Shown here in pieces: positions 466 to 8,750 of a stretch of DNA of 64,000 bases (position 1 is its first letter; each line of letters opens with the position of its first letter). This DNA is from an uncultured Marinicella sp. GTDB lineage: Bacteria > Pseudomonadota > Gammaproteobacteria > Xanthomonadales > Marinicellaceae. Under the pieces are notes generated by a model, which searched no databases, was not told the DNA's origin, and worked only from the letters and a program-made list of their open reading frames with translations. The stretch is taken from positions 1-64,000 of the forward strand of contig CANNAM010000010.1 of assembly GCA_947502595.1 (NCBI GenBank), written 5' to 3'. The position numbers and the translations under genes were made by a program.

Positions 466-1851
466 TCAGAACATTCTCATTCGTCCTTGAATTAAACGAT
501 CAACCATCAATTTAACTTCACTAACATCAACTGAAAAACCATTAAAATGGTTAAATAACTCATTGAATACCGGAGTGAGAACATCTGCTAAAGATGAATG
601 GGCTATGCCAGAATTAAACTCAAATTGAGCCGTAATTACATCAGTGGAACATTTACGGTCGTTTAAATAATGTCTATCAACAGGACTTGTCCAATTATTT
701 ATCTTCCTGTCATTCATCCCTGACCAACGCACTTCGCAAATCAAAGCAACTTCTGATAAAGTCATGTTTTTAATAATATCTAAAGCTGAAAGGAAGACTT
801 CTGATATTCGAAGTATGTTTAATTGATAATCTAACGAAGAACCTGGAACAGGCCTTTTATCTGAGGTGTCAATATCATCAGGTAAATATCTTAGTAAGTA
901 AAACTCACCGTCAGGACTTATTCTCCAAAATTCAACATACCCAGAAATTGTATTATCAAGCGAGGCTACAGTTGACTGCCAAGCCTTCTTGTAAACTTCT
1001 TGGGTGTAAACATCATTATTCGAACCACCAAAGATGGACCAAGATGGAAAGCCAGTGTAATTTTTATTAGATGCATTTATTAATCTTTGAAAGTCATCAT
1101 CTACATTGTGCTTCATTAGATCACCGCTTACTTTGATTGCCACTTCGTAGGAACCGAATCTTGGTATGCTATTTTGAGCGGCTTTTTGTTCAAAAATTGC
1201 GTAAGAATTATTCATCAACTTATTCACCTCATCATAAACAGTAACTTCACTTTTATTGATGTTAAGAAGTGCTTCGATGGCTTCTATTCCAGAATTTGAC
1301 AGGTGTCGTTTAACAAATGCCGCAATATCAGCCTCTCTGTTTAAAAAACACCGGTCTAAAATGTCTGGCCAATCATCTGATTTGGCCTCAGATGTGCTTG
1401 GAGTATTGTTTCTATTCAGTGTGCGTGTATAAAGAGTATTATCTTTAATTAGATATTTACCCCGTTCTCCAATTAACTTGGCTTTTGTAACAACAGGCAC
1501 CTTTATTCCACCTGGTACCTCGATAACAACCAGTTCTATACCGTCCACTACTGGGTAGTGGACAAAAATCTCAAACTTTGTGGCTGAATACCTATTAACA
1601 AGTATGTCAATTGCATCTTGTTTGTAATGGCTTTTTGGGTCGATTCCATCAGGTGAATCATTCGGTAGGAGAGTGGTATCATCAAATCCCACCATGAGGT
1701 ACCCACCATCAAAGTTACGGAGTGATAAAATTGTTCTGACCAACTTAGCGGCATGTCCTACATTTTCAAGATCAAGCCAGCCCTTTAATTCAGTATTGAG
1801 TGTTTCTCTTGGTCTTTCGGCAAGTTGTTGAATAAATTCATGTGTGGCCAT
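466..1851 (-). CDS. Schlafen/AlbA_2-domain putative ATP-binding protein
   Basis: The N-terminal 140 residues match the Schlafen AlbA_2 (divergent AAA_4) pattern. An E-T-L-N-T-E-L-K segment near residue 17 is followed by a helix and then N-F-D-G-G-Y-L-M-V-G-F-D-D near residue 47. Proteins with this domain bind nucleotides or nucleic acid and are often transcriptional regulators or parts of defence loci. The remaining 320 residues are a C-terminal region I cannot assign. An AGAGG ribosome binding site sits 7 nt before the ATG. The gene lies 50 nt downstream of the SH3-tailed gene on the same strand, so the two are probably co-transcribed. The role in the island is inferred from context only. 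Confidence 0.75.
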   Translation of the reverse strand: MATHEFIQQLAERPRETLNTELKGWLDLENVGHAAKLVRTILSLRNFDGGYLMVGFDDTTLLPNDSPDGIDPKSHYKQDAIDILVNRYSATKFEIFVHYPVVDGIELVVIEVPGGIKVPVVTKAKLIGERGKYLIKDNTLYTRTLNRNNTPSTSEAKSDDWPDILDRCFLNREADIAAFVKRHLSNSGIEAIEALLNINKSEVTVYDEVNKLMNNSYAIFEQKAAQNSIPRFGSYEVAIKVSGDLMKHNVDDDFQRLINASNKNYTGFPSWSIFGGSNNDVYTQEVYKKAWQSTVASLDNTISGYVEFWRISPDGEFYLLRYLPDDIDTSDKRPVPGSSLDYQLNILRISEVFLSALDIIKNMTLSEVALICEVRWSGMNDRKINNWTSPVDRHYLNDRKCSTDVITAQFEFNSGIAHSSLADVLTPVFNELFNHFNGFSVDVSEVKLMVDRLIQGRMRMF

Positions 1852-1901: not shown

Positions 1902-3200
1902 TTATATTTTTGGTGAAGGCTCAAAGAAATGTATGTATTTAAGAGCAATCCAGCCTTCCTCAGTCTTGTTGTTAACAATTACGAAGACATTGGCCCATTG
2001 GCTCCTAGATTCAAGTACTGTGACAAATGTCCTGTTTGGTATTTTAATAGCATCATCCGTGTATTCTAGCCCCGGTCCATTCCTTAAAAACACATTGCCA
2101 TTTTTACTTTGAGTTTTTACCACTCCATTAGAGATGGTATTGGTTCGACTTTTAGACTCTGACTCAACGGTCAAATTAACTTGAGGCTTGAAGTTAATTA
2201 CTGTATTTGAGTTATCAATGTTGACAACTAAGTCTGTGGCTAAATAAAGGCCTACTATCTGTACATATGATTTTGGGTCTTTAAGATAGGACAGTAACCA
2301 TTTTGGCATCTTACCTTTTTTTACGTCCTTGATATCTTGGTCAATATTTTCAGTGATTTCATCAGGACCTAAAGGATATGCATCATCGGCATGTATTTCA
2401 GGAGCATAGATATCTAATGGATCAGAAAACCATCCCTCGCGGATATCATATGGAACATCAGCAATAGTTTGGGCCAATTCCGCCATGGCATCAGAAGCTC
2501 GGTACCATTGGCTCATATTGCTAAGCATAAGATCCATTGAATCTTGTGTAATATCGCCCAACAAAGCACTGATGTTTGGGATTTCAGCTTGTCCGAATAA
2601 CGAGCTGGCACTCAAGATATTTTGCTTTGTTTGCTCGGCGAGTATGTTTAAATCATTAAACTCATGCACAAAGGATGATGAAAGAACGTTACGAGCAAGT
2701 TCTTCATTGCTGATTATAGATGCCGATGCCAAAGAGTGTATGCGTTTGATCTCATCGTCAAAATCAATACCCAGCGCTGAAATGAATTGATCATTCCTAC
2801 CAGTTAATTCATCAATGGCTGCCCGTGATGTTTCCACTGTTTCAAGGTGAGAAGAATGAGGGGTATCTAACAATCCTTTGAACATTTTTTCACCAGGGCC
2901 CATTGCAATCTCTTTTAATTTACTCATTTCAGCCGCAAAAACATCAACACCTGGATTTAATAATCTCAAGTGAGTCTCGGCTAAACTAAGGTTTTGTTCG
3001 ATATCAAGGTTTTCAAGTGCAAGTGTGATGGCTGCATTATTGGCTGAATACACATCATCCAAAATGGTACTGGCAAGATTTTCCGGGACATCTGTAAAAA
3101 CGCCTTTGGCCATCTCAATTAATTGTTCGTTAGGATCCAACTCACCAAGAAGACTGGCAGTGGCAGAAGAGTGGTCAAGGAGCCATGGTTTATTTCGCAA
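1902..3200 (-). CDS. Cytoplasmic protein with C-terminal bacterial SH3 domain
   Basis: This is a 432-residue protein without a signal peptide. The first 260 residues are predicted to be mostly helical and acidic, and I recognise no family there. A short hydrophobic stretch lies near residues 312 to 325. The last 70 residues form a bacterial SH3 fold: V-F-L-R-N-G-P-G, then a V-T-V-L-E strand, then an E-G-W-I-A-L-K-Y-I end. Bacterial SH3 domains usually bind peptides or peptidoglycan. The start used is TTG, and no stronger in-frame start or ribosome binding site is visible. It is the first gene of a likely two-gene unit with the AlbA_2 gene and is divergent from the helicase gene. The function is unknown; partnership with the AlbA_2 protein is inferred from spacing. 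Confidence 0.6.
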   Translation of the reverse strand: MRNKPWLLDHSSATASLLGELDPNEQLIEMAKGVFTDVPENLASTILDDVYSANNAAITLALENLDIEQNLSLAETHLRLLNPGVDVFAAEMSKLKEIAMGPGEKMFKGLLDTPHSSHLETVETSRAAIDELTGRNDQFISALGIDFDDEIKRIHSLASASIISNEELARNVLSSSFVHEFNDLNILAEQTKQNILSASSLFGQAEIPNISALLGDITQDSMDLMLSNMSQWYRASDAMAELAQTIADVPYDIREGWFSDPLDIYAPEIHADDAYPLGPDEITENIDQDIKDVKKGKMPKWLLSYLKDPKSYVQIVGLYLATDLVVNIDNSNTVINFKPQVNLTVESESKSRTNTISNGVVKTQSKNGNVFLRNGPGLEYTDDAIKIPNRTFVTVLESRSQWANVFVIVNNKTEEGWIALKYIHFFEPSPKI

Positions 3201-3746: not shown

Positions 3747-6700
3747 ATGGAAGTTAAGCTCGAAACTGAAAATCTAGAAATCTCAGAACCTATTTATTAT
3801 CAAAAAGAAAAAACTCCTATTGGGTTATTATCTGAATTGGCACTAACTAATGGCAAATGGGAATTTTCATCTTCTCATTTACATTCTAATGTTTATGAGC
3901 TAACTCACAAGACTGGCCTTCAATTCTCTGCAGAACTAACTGAAGGTAAGGAACATAAACAAGGAACATACAAAATAATAAGTTCTATAAAAAAAACAAC
4001 ACAATCATCATCAGTAAACACTGTTAATATCAGTGGTGAAGGTCGTTCCGGAAAGAAATTAAGAAAAGCTCAATTAGGTTCAATTCATGCGCTTTTGGCT
4101 CATTGGTCATTAAATAATAATGCTGCAACTATTGTTTTACCGACTGGCACTGGCAAAACTGAAACTATGTTGACAGTAACCCTAATTGACAACGCCACAA
4201 GAGTACTTGTAGTTGTTCCTAGTATCGAGTTAAAGAATCAAATAGCAGATAAGTTTTTATCATGGGGCATGCTAAGGGAATTGGGAGTAATAGATGATAA
4301 CTATCCCAACCCTAAAGTTTTAGTACTAAATAAAACTATACCCGGAGTTGATTCAATAAAATATTTAGAAATGTCAGATGTGGTAATAACTACTCCTGCA
4401 TTGATAGCAAGAGCAAGTGATGAAGTAAAAGCAAAAATATCAAATATTTTTAGCCATCTTTATTTTGATGAAGCACATCATGTTGCTGCTAACGAGTGGG
4501 CTTCTCTTAAAAAATTATTTAAAAAATTAAAAATTGTACAATTTACAGCTACTCCATATAGAAATGACAGACAGCCTATTGAAGGAAAAATTGTATACAA
4601 CTATCCGTTATCAAAGGCATTGGAAGAAAATTGCTTTTCAAGAATATCACTAATTTCAGTTGATGAAATACATCCAAGGAAAAAAGACAAGTCAATCGCT
4701 GTTGCCGCAATGGATAGGTTATATAAAGATAGAAAGGCAGGGTTTAAGAATCACTGCATGATGGTTAGAGCATCTGGTAAAAGCCAAGCTGAGTACCTTT
4801 ATTCAAAATACAAAAAATGGTACCCTGGCGAAAGAATTATAATGATTCATAGCGGTACTCCTGGAAAAAAAGAAATAATAAAGAGTATAAAAAACAATAA
4901 TTACGACATTGTTATTTGTGTAGAAATGTTAAAAGAAGGTTTTGATCATCCTGAGTTTAAAATTGCGGCAGTCCATGGAATGCATAAATCATTATCAGTA
5001 TTATTGCAATTCATTGGTAGATTTACTAGAACAAGGAGTGATTTGGGAGATGCTTCTTTTGTAATAAATTTTGCTGATGAAAAAATGTCAAACGAGCTTG
5101 AGAATTTATTCCAAGAAGGTGCTGGATGGGAAAATGTTATAAGTGAAATTGCAGATGCAAGAAAGCAACAAGCTGAATCATTATTGGAGTTCTTGCAGGA
5201 TTGCCAGCCTTTGGCTGGTTTTGATTCACCAGACATAAACTTAAATCCGAAAGTAGTCTACCCACCTCTTAGTTGTATAAGTTTTAAATGCAAAAATGTT
5301 GACTGGTTTAAATTCAATGATGCCTTTAATTTACAAAAATATGCATTATCGCAACCATATATAAATAGCAAGAAAGGCGTATTTTATTTCACAACCCAAA
5401 AAAGAGAAAAAGTAAAGTGGGTAAAAAGCAAACAAATGAAAAACCAAACTTGGGATTTAATTGTAATGCACCATGATCCATTAAACAAAATGTTGTATGT
5501 TGGTTTTACCGAGAAAAAACTACCGATAGATGAAATTGTTGAGTCAATATCAGTGGATGATGCTAAAAGATTTGAGGGAGACTGTGTTTTTAACGCGTTT
5601 GATTCAATTAAAAGACTATCAATAGTTCATGCCGGCATATTTAAACCAGCAAACCACTTACATAGGTATTCGCGATTGAGTGGAGCAGATGTAACTACAG
5701 AGCTTACAAGATGGAAATCTGAGGGTCGATGTCAGAAATCTGACTTTGTAGGAATTGGATTTAGGGATGGTTTTCCAGTAAGTATTGGTGCATCTGTAAA
5801 AGGTAAAATATGGAGTCCTGCACGAGTGGGAAACATAAAGGAGTGGACTGAGTGGTCAAAAAATATTGGGAGGTTAATTACTGATAAAAACATTAACTCA
5901 AATCAATTATTAGAAGATTCTGCAAAGAAAATTGAAATCAAAAATTACCCTGATAATATGGTAGTACTAGCAGCAGATTGGGCTGACAATATCTTTCGTA
6001 ATATTTATAAAATTACAATTGAAGATAAAGGGAAAGATCCAACTTTACTGTCGGAAGCATCGATAAAATTTTTATCTTTTAAAGGAAATGAGTCTAAGTT
6101 TAATTTTATAACATATGAAATAACAATTCCATTTACTATAGAGCTTGGTGGTGAAAAAGGTCATAAGGTCATCGGGCTAGATGATTCTGAAATAATCGTA
6201 GAAGGTTTGAAAAGCAAACCTTTAACCTTAAAAGAGTTTTTTCAGGAAAACCCACCTACAATGTTTTTAATAAATGGTTGCACTATCTCAGGGTGTATAC
6301 ATACTGATTATGGGGAATGCGACATTCAGATTATTCCTGATGATTGTATTGAACCGTTAATCTGGAGTGGTGTAGATTACACCATTGAGTCACTGTATAA
6401 GAGCAGTGAAAGCAGAGAAAACTCTATTCAAGAGTACATGATGCAACATCTTTTACAAAAAGGTGCCACAATTGTTTTTAATGATGACAATGCAGGAGAA
6501 TCAGCTGACATCGTAGCCATTTTTTTATCAGACGAAGAAGTTAAATTTGAAATGGTACATTGCAAGTATTCAAAAGCAGTAAAAGGAGCACGTAAAACAG
6601 ATTTATATGAAGTTTGTGGTCAAGCAATCGTTTCTTTAAGATACAAGTGGAAGCCTGAAGAACTGTTAAAACATATGCAAAGAAGAAATGGTGCAGGTGT

Positions 6701-6917
6701 TTTGAAAAATAGAAGATTTTATCACGGACAGGTATCTGATTTAGATAGAGTTAAAAACTGTTTGAAATATTGCGATGTCAAATTTAGATTTGCTATTGCT
6801 CAACCAGGGGTTAGTAAATCATCTCTAAACAACGATATGAAGAGAGTCTTAGGATCTGTTTATTCTACAGTTGTTGAAATGACTGAAACAAAGTTACATT
6901 GCTATATTAACACCTAA
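3747..6917 (+). CDS. DEAH-box helicase with possible C-terminal nuclease-like domain
   Basis: This 1056-residue protein carries a superfamily 2 helicase core: Walker A L-P-T-G-T-G-K-T (131-138), D-E-A-H (about 240), F-T-A-T-P (about 265) and motif VI Q-F-I-G-R-F-T-R (about 421). This is the arrangement of type I/III restriction and defence helicases. About 480 residues of unassigned sequence follow. Near the C-terminus, S-A-D-I-V-A-I (about 917) and V-H-C-K-Y-S (about 935), then a D-L-Y-E-V-C-G-Q segment, resemble a PD-(D/E)XK-type core in which the usual E/Q-x-K reads H-C-K. I infer DNA translocation with nuclease activity or a nuclease-derived fold. No methyltransferase is nearby, so a classical restriction-modification pair is unlikely. 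Its stop codon overlaps that of the recombinase on the other strand. Confidence 0.8.
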   Translation: MEVKLETENLEISEPIYYQKEKTPIGLLSELALTNGKWEFSSSHLHSNVYELTHKTGLQFSAELTEGKEHKQGTYKIISSIKKTTQSSSVNTVNISGEGRSGKKLRKAQLGSIHALLAHWSLNNNAATIVLPTGTGKTETMLTVTLIDNATRVLVVVPSIELKNQIADKFLSWGMLRELGVIDDNYPNPKVLVLNKTIPGVDSIKYLEMSDVVITTPALIARASDEVKAKISNIFSHLYFDEAHHVAANEWASLKKLFKKLKIVQFTATPYRNDRQPIEGKIVYNYPLSKALEENCFSRISLISVDEIHPRKKDKSIAVAAMDRLYKDRKAGFKNHCMMVRASGKSQAEYLYSKYKKWYPGERIIMIHSGTPGKKEIIKSIKNNNYDIVICVEMLKEGFDHPEFKIAAVHGMHKSLSVLLQFIGRFTRTRSDLGDASFVINFADEKMSNELENLFQEGAGWENVISEIADARKQQAESLLEFLQDCQPLAGFDSPDINLNPKVVYPPLSCISFKCKNVDWFKFNDAFNLQKYALSQPYINSKKGVFYFTTQKREKVKWVKSKQMKNQTWDLIVMHHDPLNKMLYVGFTEKKLPIDEIVESISVDDAKRFEGDCVFNAFDSIKRLSIVHAGIFKPANHLHRYSRLSGADVTTELTRWKSEGRCQKSDFVGIGFRDGFPVSIGASVKGKIWSPARVGNIKEWTEWSKNIGRLITDKNINSNQLLEDSAKKIEIKNYPDNMVVLAADWADNIFRNIYKITIEDKGKDPTLLSEASIKFLSFKGNESKFNFITYEITIPFTIELGGEKGHKVIGLDDSEIIVEGLKSKPLTLKEFFQENPPTMFLINGCTISGCIHTDYGECDIQIIPDDCIEPLIWSGVDYTIESLYKSSESRENSIQEYMMQHLLQKGATIVFNDDNAGESADIVAIFLSDEEVKFEMVHCKYSKAVKGARKTDLYEVCGQAIVSLRYKWKPEELLKHMQRRNGAGVLKNRRFYHGQVSDLDRVKNCLKYCDVKFRFAIAQPGVSKSSLNNDMKRVLGSVYSTVVEMTETKLHCYINT

Positions 6918-7867
6918 AACTTAACAACTAAACTAGCCGAATCTTTATGGTGCTGAGCTCTTTTGTCATACATTTGAGTTGTAGCTATATTGGCATGTTT
7001 TACAGTGTTTTGAACATCTTTAATGTCACAGTTGTTTTCAAGAGCTTGGGTAATGAACGTGGCTCTGGCAGAATGCGGGGTTATTAGTTTGGGTAACCCA
7101 GCCTTCAATACATACTTATCGAATAAGTAATTAAAAGCCCTGGGTGACAATGGTTTGATTTCATCTTTGCTTTTATTATTGCTCATTGAAGTGAATAGGG
7201 GGGACTCATCATCATCAATATGGAATGCTTGTTTCATATAGACCTGAAGGATACTATGCAATTCTGGATGGATGGCCACCCGGTTTTTCTTACCGCCTTT
7301 AACTTTGAAATCAATGACGTTGTATCCATTGTCTTCAAGTAAATTTTTTGCTTTAAGTGAACGCACTTCAGATCTCCTGCAACCAGTATAGAAGTATATG
7401 TATAGAATGGTGGTATCACGAATTCCTAAAGGCGTATCCATGCCTGGTGCATCAAGAATCATTCGTGCTTGTTCCTTGGTAAGTACTGGTGACTCTACCT
7501 GATCTTGTTGGACTTTAGGTCTGATTAACCCATGCGTTGGATTGATCGACATTAATTGCTTCTCGCACAAATGATCAAATAATGAGGACAAGGCGGATAT
7601 GCGACTATTAACTGTTCTATTTGATGCACCAGACTTCATCATGGCATCTCGCCAAGATATGATGTGAGCTGAGGAACTTGAGCGTAAATCATTTTGGTTT
7701 CCTATGCTGTGAAACTTAAAGTATTCACGTACAGCGACAGAATAAGTTGACTTTGTTGCAGGTGAAGTGAAGTTTGCTAACCATACAGATTCTTCGGGTA
7801 TGTGAGCAAGTAGTTTAAATCTTTGATCAGTTTTTATTAACTTTCTGTTTTTGTCAGATTTTTCCAT
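6914..7867 (-). CDS. Tyrosine recombinase / phage-type integrase
   Basis: This 317-residue recombinase has an N-terminal SAM-like core-binding domain (about 25-105) and a C-terminal catalytic domain. The catalytic residues are visible: R164 in G-C-R-R-S-E, K190 in V-K-G-G-K-K, H265 and R268 in P-H-S-A-R, H291 in K-H-A-N, and the nucleophile Y300 in Q-M-Y-D-K-R. Its length and layout resemble XerC/XerD and simple island integrases that cut and rejoin DNA at short core sites. It is not XerC or XerD by context, since it sits within AT-rich accessory DNA. The last four bases overlap antiparallel with the end of the helicase gene. It probably mobilised this island or a neighbouring cassette. Confidence 0.9.
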   Translation of the reverse strand: MEKSDKNRKLIKTDQRFKLLAHIPEESVWLANFTSPATKSTYSVAVREYFKFHSIGNQNDLRSSSSAHIISWRDAMMKSGASNRTVNSRISALSSLFDHLCEKQLMSINPTHGLIRPKVQQDQVESPVLTKEQARMILDAPGMDTPLGIRDTTILYIYFYTGCRRSEVRSLKAKNLLEDNGYNVIDFKVKGGKKNRVAIHPELHSILQVYMKQAFHIDDDESPLFTSMSNNKSKDEIKPLSPRAFNYLFDKYVLKAGLPKLITPHSARATFITQALENNCDIKDVQNTVKHANIATTQMYDKRAQHHKDSASLVVKF

Positions 7868-7981: not shown

Positions 7982-8395
7982 CTAATTGGCTGTTTGATCA
8001 AAGCGGCCATATGCGAGTGAAGCAATAAGGTCTATATTTTTACCAGACTTGATACCTTCAATTGGAGTGATACAGGTTCCATCGTCCATAACAAGAGCAT
8101 CATGTTTATTAAGTAAAAATAAACAAGCATCCCAAAACATGCCATCCCTAGAACATAGAATTTTAATAATACGAGTAATCCCAGGAATTATCCTGTTGCC
8201 TTGAAACTGAAATACTGGGTATTTCCATTTACCATCAACCGATATTGCTAAGAGTTCATTCCGTTTTCGCATGTCAGTTACACAAGGATGATCTATACCT
8301 AATAAATCTGCAACATTATTTGTACTGTATAGGCCACCATAATCTAACAACATCTTCTGTTTAGCTTCAGTAACCGTTAATTTTAATTTATTCAT
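7982..8395 (-). CDS. Xre/ParS-antitoxin-like DNA-binding protein
   Basis: This 137-residue protein starts with a helix-turn-helix-like segment: Y-S-T-N-N-V-A-D-L-L-G-I, then a recognition-helix-like segment ending R-K-R-N-E-L-L-A. The pattern W-K-Y-P-V-F-Q-F ... P-G-I then T-P-I-E-G-I-K-S-G follows. That order recalls the MbcA/ParS/Xre antitoxin group, where small Xre proteins bind DNA and neutralise a RES-domain toxin. No RES-like toxin gene is adjacent, so it may be an orphan regulator or the directionality factor of the recombinase. An AGGTGG ribosome binding site precedes the ATG. It lies 114 bases upstream of the recombinase gene on the same strand. Confidence 0.6.
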   Translation of the reverse strand: MNKLKLTVTEAKQKMLLDYGGLYSTNNVADLLGIDHPCVTDMRKRNELLAISVDGKWKYPVFQFQGNRIIPGITRIIKILCSRDGMFWDACLFLLNKHDALVMDDGTCITPIEGIKSGKNIDLIASLAYGRFDQTAN

Positions 8396-8552: not shown

Positions 8553-8750
8553 TCCGGACTCCATTTAAATGATTTTGCTTGTTCCGGACGCCGTTTACCT
8601 AGAATTAATTGTTTTAGCCGAATCCATGTCTTAATGAGATGGACGCTATTTTCATATAGTTACTTGGGAAATCTAAGAGTCGGACGCCATTTTCTTAAAG
8701 TTACTTGGCTAAATGGGAATATAGGGCTGTATTTTCTTAAAGTTACTTGG
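8553..8750 (+). repeat. Cluster of five degenerate direct repeats (GGACGCCATTT type)
   Basis: Copies of a GGACKCCATTT-like unit start at 8556, 8586, 8641, 8682 and 8724. The last three extend into a shared second block, TTCTTAAAGTTACTTGG or close to it, giving units of about 41 bases. The fifth copy is the most diverged at its start. Open frames here are only translations of the repeat. The array lies in a 620-base gene-free stretch (8396-9017) at the edge of the accessory island. Repeated transposase-binding sites at the end of an IS21-like or Tn7-like element would look like this, but no transposase is present. Recombinase arm sites are another option. Confidence 0.55.

Follow-up and report, generated by a model that had tools for sequence, protein, structure and literature searches.

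A probable one-gene defence enzyme that joins a RadD/XPB-type helicase to a predicted nuclease domain with an H-x-K motif

The gene at positions 3747 to 6917 of the window, the 64,000-nucleotide stretch of Marinicella DNA analysed here, probably acts as a single-gene defence against phages or plasmids. Our preferred reading, to which we assign a probability of about 0.7, is a stand-alone, single-polypeptide defence enzyme in which an ATP-driven SF2 motor and a C-terminal, metal-dependent HxK nuclease would act against phage or plasmid DNA. This reading is supported by helicase motifs, a nuclease core, invariant residues, mobility and defence-rich neighbourhoods, all of which were taken from sequence or from a structural model. 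The chances seem roughly even for a broader proposal, namely a new and widespread one-protein immune family, present in at least nine phyla, in which a RadD/XPB motor drives an E-x2-D...H-x-K nuclease of an HxK clade shared with the defence candidate PDC-S71.

The full-length protein was modelled with AF2 at a mean pLDDT of 84.8. Its N-terminal segment is shorter or missing in some homologues. The layout of the gene, with the evidence for each part, is as follows:

3747 to 6917, forward strand: whole gene, SF2 helicase plus PD-(D/E)XK-fold (HxK) nuclease; intact reading frame with an ATG start, 1056 aa
3747 to 4046, forward strand: N-terminal ~100 residues, beta-rich, variable and of low confidence (AF2 model, homologue alignment)
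4053 to 5066, forward strand: SF2 helicase core of the RadD/XPB/ResIII type, residues ~103-440 (Pfam, Foldseek, VIA-align)
4146 to 4160, forward strand: helicase motif I (Walker A), GTGKT, residues 134-138 (alignment)
4467 to 4478, forward strand: helicase motif II, DEAH, residues 241-244 (alignment)
5154 to 6356, forward strand: conserved middle region, residues ~470-870 (alignment; no Pfam family)
6387 to 6914, forward strand: predicted C-terminal PD-(D/E)XK-fold nuclease domain, residues 881-1056 (AF2, VIA-align)
6483 to 6509, forward strand: acidic half of the predicted active site, D913-D-N-A-G-E918-S-A-D921 (alignment)
6558 to 6566, forward strand: HxK motif, H938-C-K940 (alignment)

An earlier note, made from the DNA letters alone, had placed a helicase in this exact reading frame and had described a single-protein arrangement. 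Both statements hold, as Pfam matches ResIII (E=1.3e-22) and Helicase_C (E=6e-8) and one frame carries both the helicase and the nuclease domain. Past residue ~440 Pfam gave no match. The matches in PADLOC, NCBIfam and PHROGs cover essentially the helicase part (PbeA, SauUSI-like mREase_IV, RadD and "DNA helicase"); no family in these four libraries covers the C-terminal half, and none of them names the full-length family. By sequence, the relatives in the PDB are XPB, SauUSI, RadD and UvrB. The helicase core matched RadD in Foldseek (E 6.6e-14) and RIG-I, FANCM and RadD in VIA-align (Z 26-28). Conservation was read from an alignment of 95 sequences, the window protein and 94 full-length homologues from plasmid copies, genome contigs and viral contigs. 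In the Walker A motif, G136 and K137 are invariant (95/95), with G134 kept in 94 and T138 in 92; in the DEAH motif, D241, E242 and H244 are invariant and A243 is kept in 93. Judged from sequence and model, residues ~103-440 form an active-looking SF2 helicase of the RadD/XPB/ResIII type. RadD and XPB share the core fold and motifs with the window protein, but they are repair and transcription helicases without such a nuclease domain.

SauUSI (PDB 7clg) was matched by sequence at E 4e-7 with the single protein and 2.5e-17 with a profile, and also by Foldseek. This closeness favours a type IV or sequence-specific restriction enzyme, in which the middle region would be a target-recognition domain and a modified base or site would be needed, as in SauUSI. 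The middle region, in which G630, G646, W689 and W703 are invariant in the alignment, is large and conserved and matches no known family, and most loci need no methyltransferase; both points suit such an enzyme. However, no SRA, PUA or other reader was detected in the domain scans, and the nuclease differs in type and in position from that of SauUSI, a PLD domain at the N-terminus (PMC7913695). We consider this reading unlikely. SauUSI, in which ATP drives translocation and then cutting of methylated DNA (PMC7913695), also carries a C-terminal SRA reader. Like the window protein, SauUSI and PbeA belong to the ResIII/RadD-like helicase group and have a nuclease in the same chain; their nucleases are of the PLD/HKD type (PMC7913695, PMC10853773). 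Identity with either was rejected, as the Pfam scan found no PLD domain in the window protein.

The earlier note had also read S-A-D-I-V-A-I ... V-H-C-K-Y-S as a C-terminal PD-(D/E)XK-like nuclease with histidine in place of the usual E, D or Q. Both motifs occur in the protein (FNDDNAGESADIVAI ... MVHCKYS), and E881, D913, E918, D921, H938, K940, Q959 and R980 are identical in all 95 sequences. Since most of the aligned homologues are only 25-33% identical to the window protein, the H-C-K motif is not a product of chance. HxK is universal, its middle residue being C in 70 sequences and L in 23, and the distance from D921 to H938 is 17-22 residues.

The model agrees with the nuclease reading as well. 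Residues 800-1056 were predicted by AF2 from 82 sequences with a pLDDT of 92.3, giving a helix at 894-904, strands at 909-912, 922-927 and 931-939, a helix at 950-967 and a strand at 1010-1023. This is the alpha-beta-beta-beta-alpha-beta order of the PD-(D/E)XK core, which the earlier note had proposed to look for. In the model, D921 starts strand 2 and H938-x-K940 ends strand 3, so that an invariant aspartate and an invariant lysine stand where the fold has them, with histidine at the place of the usual E, D or Q. Because all 95 sequences have HxK instead of (D/E)xK, the domain is termed PD-(D/E)XK-fold here: it is related to the superfamily at the level of the fold, has a variant motif and is not a canonical member.

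Among solved structures, VIA-align ranked HamA of Hachiman first for the nuclease domain (Z 9.3 over 164 residues, rmsd 4.3), followed by FokI (8.6), N.BspD6I (7.5), AF1548 (7.5), SduA of Shedu (6.9), NucS/EndoMS (6.9) and Upx (6.7), where a Z of 8-9 barely exceeds the background range given by the tool. Foldseek alone gave nothing at E<=0.001, with FokI best at E 0.01, and a sequence search of the PDB with the nuclease profile gave no match up to E 5. Since the top VIA-align matches, of moderate Z, nearly all share one nuclease fold and the motif positions agree with it, the predicted PD-(D/E)XK-fold nuclease domain is a convincing assignment. H938 would hold the place of the motif's E/D/Q, and E918, D913 or E881 may be the source of the missing carboxylate. 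A PLD/HKD reading of H-C-K was rejected: an aspartate follows five residues after the lysine in 15/95 sequences and HxK(x4)D(x6)G occurs in 1/95, and the predicted core is of the PD-(D/E)XK type. Nothing relevant to the HxK variant or to the full-length family was found in the literature searched, which included few subscription papers, and an earlier description is possible.

The suggestion that the protein is Hachiman-like stood for the nuclease, which resembles HamA, and for the general pairing of a helicase with a PD-(D/E)XK nuclease, but not for the system as a whole. Hachiman consists of two genes, its HamB is a Ski2-type helicase and the HamA active site is E138/K140, an E-x-K (PMC12278908). 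The window system is one polypeptide with a RadD/XPB-type motor and H-x-K. Membership in Hachiman was rejected on the single gene, the lack of a DUF1837 match in Pfam and neighbours other than HamA/HamB. A Ski2-type helicase was rejected too, the closest relatives being RadD, XPB, SauUSI and UvrB, with RIG-I among the structural matches. Hna of S. meliloti (SMa2245) is comparable in plan: a single-gene helicase with a C-terminal PD-(D/E)XK nuclease that acts by abortive infection, and whose 3'-5' ssDNA exonuclease is restrained by ATP until phage SSB releases it (PMC13381803). In contrast to the window protein, Hna has 845 aa, a DinG/XPD-like helicase and an ...FECK... motif. Identity with Hna had been suspected for single-gene helicase-nucleases on rhizobial plasmids, and it was rejected at E 0.15 in BLASTP against the 845-aa pSymA frame and E 0.44 with the nuclease profile.

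The HxK domain is not restricted to the full-length family. When 398 genomes of the phylum were searched with a profile of the C-terminal domain, the matches comprised four full-length copies, three short frames or fragments and five helicase-less proteins of ~600 aa (L160-L164) that end in the same nuclease domain, with the motif DD..(G/D)E.AD...H(V/S/A)K. Three of the five match the PADLOC model PDC-S71 over its full length, and the two more distant ones fall outside it. These proteins still score at E 7e-21 to 2e-8 against a profile from which the window's clade was left out, and hhalign gave a probability of 98.8 between the family's nuclease domain and the PDC-S71-type domain. PDC-S71 thus resembles the window protein in a homologous C-terminal nuclease domain, and differs from it as a single gene of ~600 aa that has no helicase and is only a computational PADLOC candidate for phage defence. 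The 589-position PDC-S71 model is not matched by the window protein in PADLOC and is matched by 2 of 13 family members (best E 5e-5). Since HxK is found in helicase-less relatives too, it characterises a nuclease clade that comes in two or more architectures and is not a quirk of one protein.

These relatives bear on whether the domain could be catalytically dead. With the canonical D/E/Q of (D/E)xK replaced by histidine, an inactive nucleic-acid-binding domain is conceivable, in which case the HxK domain would sense or bind nucleic acid and the helicase would act alone; some other defence helicases do carry a dead domain of this fold (BrxHII, PMC12839542). However, the motif is usually lost from dead domains, whereas here eight polar residues including K940 are invariant and the E-x-x-D/HxK pattern is kept in helicase-less proteins. 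A dead domain therefore appears improbable.

The family is scattered and mobile. Searching plasmids with tblastn matched 157 records, 54 of which cover at least 80% of the query; the nearest copy is on A. baumannii pABA-2f10 (61% identity) and the other plasmid copies are at ~30%. The alignment as query found 80 loci in genome contigs and 27 in viral contigs, unlike the single protein, which had no match in the genome contigs. A class-wide tblastn returned mainly helicase-only matches with UvrB-sized frames. In the tree, the window protein groups with the A. baumannii plasmid copy and a Pedobacter sp. of the Bacteroidota, at 57-62% identity. At least nine phyla are represented, namely Pseudomonadota, Bacteroidota, Bacillota, Actinomycetota, Planctomycetota, Verrucomicrobiota, Nitrospirota, Armatimonadota and a Parcubacterium. 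They are intermixed, with 16 label changes where 8 would be the minimum, and a Klebsiella grimontii plasmid copy sits inside the Bacillota branch. This sequence-based pattern fits horizontal spread, without proving each single transfer. Among complete E. coli genomes, 15/5426 carry the gene, labelled just "DEAD/DEAH box helicase" in RefSeq (September 2026). A 55% homologue in a record labelled Acinetobacter phage MD-2021a (L166, CAKLQF020000001.1) lies beside phenylacetate (paa) genes. It was not counted as a phage gene for that reason, and the record looks like a bacterial contig mislabelled as phage.

In the window, the gene lies within the first ~9 kb, where GC is 0.30-0.39 compared to 0.39-0.46 beyond. 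The features around it are:

466 to 1851, reverse strand: protein with a Schlafen AlbA_2 domain (Pfam E 2e-5)
1902 to 3200, reverse strand: 432-aa protein with a C-terminal bacterial SH3-like domain (Pfam)
6914 to 7867, reverse strand: tyrosine recombinase (Pfam Phage_integrase E 3e-26)
7982 to 8395, reverse strand: HTH protein beside the recombinase (Pfam HTH_17 E 2e-4, under the gathering score)
8636 to 8750: three imperfect 32-nt direct repeats, spacing 41/42

The recombinase is tail-to-tail with the helicase-nuclease gene, with a 4-bp overlap, and is the probable mobility gene of an island. Positions 1 to ~9000 are probably this mobile island, bounded on the right by the recombinase, the HTH gene and the repeats and cut on the left by the contig end. 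In a genome of the same genus (G668; L186:8204-9957), a 61% identical recombinase has the same 4-bp tail-to-tail overlap with an unrelated 271-aa frame; from this shared geometry, the recombinase possibly carries exchangeable cargo at its 3' end. The AlbA_2 and SH3 genes are upstream of the helicase-nuclease gene on the opposite strand. AlbA_2 domains are frequent in defence islands. The AlbA_2 protein had no PADLOC match, and Pfam found no second known domain in the SH3-like protein. Signs of a defence island in the window are limited to the AlbA_2 gene and the low-GC stretch with the recombinase.

The homologues have richer surroundings. Some stand alone, and others are beside defence genes, on plasmids and tRNA islands. 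One adjoins Gabija (GajA/GajB; L032), another Lmu (LmuA/LmuB; L043), and a third, on a Roseibium plasmid island (L165), occurs with CBASS (SAVED), AbiEii and a PDC-S71-like gene. At a cut-off of 1e-10, 128 adjacent genes matched 422 PADLOC models compared to 107 for 128 distant genes (>6.5 kb away on the same set of contigs), a ~4-fold difference that is approximate since models and not proteins were counted and the distant set held ~40,000 residues compared to ~48,000. Repair-type genes, radA or a UvrD-like helicase, are near some copies. At L189 and L190, a large UvrD/AddA-like helicase gene precedes the homologue by 13-14 bp on the same strand, which points to a second recurrent partner.

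The proximity to radA or UvrD-like genes, together with RadD, XPB and UvrB as best helicase matches, would be expected of a RadD-like repair or recombination helicase-nuclease that travels on mobile elements without serving defence. Its very patchy occurrence, both in the phylum and in E. coli, its location on plasmids and islands and its defence-rich neighbours make such a role very unlikely.

The earlier note's remark that there is no methyltransferase nearby is correct for the window's first ~9 kb, where reading frames and Pfam gave none, and HsdM/HsdS partners are likewise missing from the window. It does not extend to one clade of homologues, the only one with a complete type I restriction-modification operon directly ahead of the gene. 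Type I neighbours were found on Vibrio p337 (L038), at L188 and in two E. coli tRNA-Leu islands (L192, L193), where the gene follows hsdS by 6-12 bp on the same strand as hsdR-hsdM-hsdS. All three E. coli chromosomal copies viewed (L191, L192, L193) also have a ~415-420-aa protein ~150 bp downstream on the same strand. An accessory subunit of type I restriction-modification, which the hsdS spacing in E. coli and the similar loci on p337 and at L188 would favour, is the least probable reading and was rejected as a general rule, since the association is clade-specific, most loci (the window included) lack hsd genes, those hsd operons have their own HsdR, and in the tRNA-Phe island of E. coli A19 the gene is intact beside fragmentary hsdR and hsdM.

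For the preferred reading, a stand-alone defence enzyme, we infer the following mechanism. The RadD/XPB/ResIII-type motor would use ATP to bind, translocate on or remodel foreign (phage or plasmid) or abnormal DNA and, directly or via the middle region, would bring the DNA to the nuclease or activate it. The predicted catalytic set is E881, D913, E918-x-x-D921, H938-x-K940 and Q959, with H replacing the canonical E/D/Q. DNA cutting coupled to ATP would confer the putative anti-phage or anti-plasmid role, and the outcome could be direct clearance or abortive infection.

Bacterial immunity has repeatedly made use of helicase-nuclease proteins, as seen with Hachiman, Hna and SauUSI. If active, the family would add a stand-alone member that is widely distributed, uses a different motor and has an unusual active site with a histidine. 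It would also explain genes that RefSeq calls only helicases and would give a mechanism-level prediction for the candidate PDC-S71. For enzymology, the HxK site poses the question of how a PD-(D/E)XK fold may catalyse with histidine in the place of the second carboxylate.
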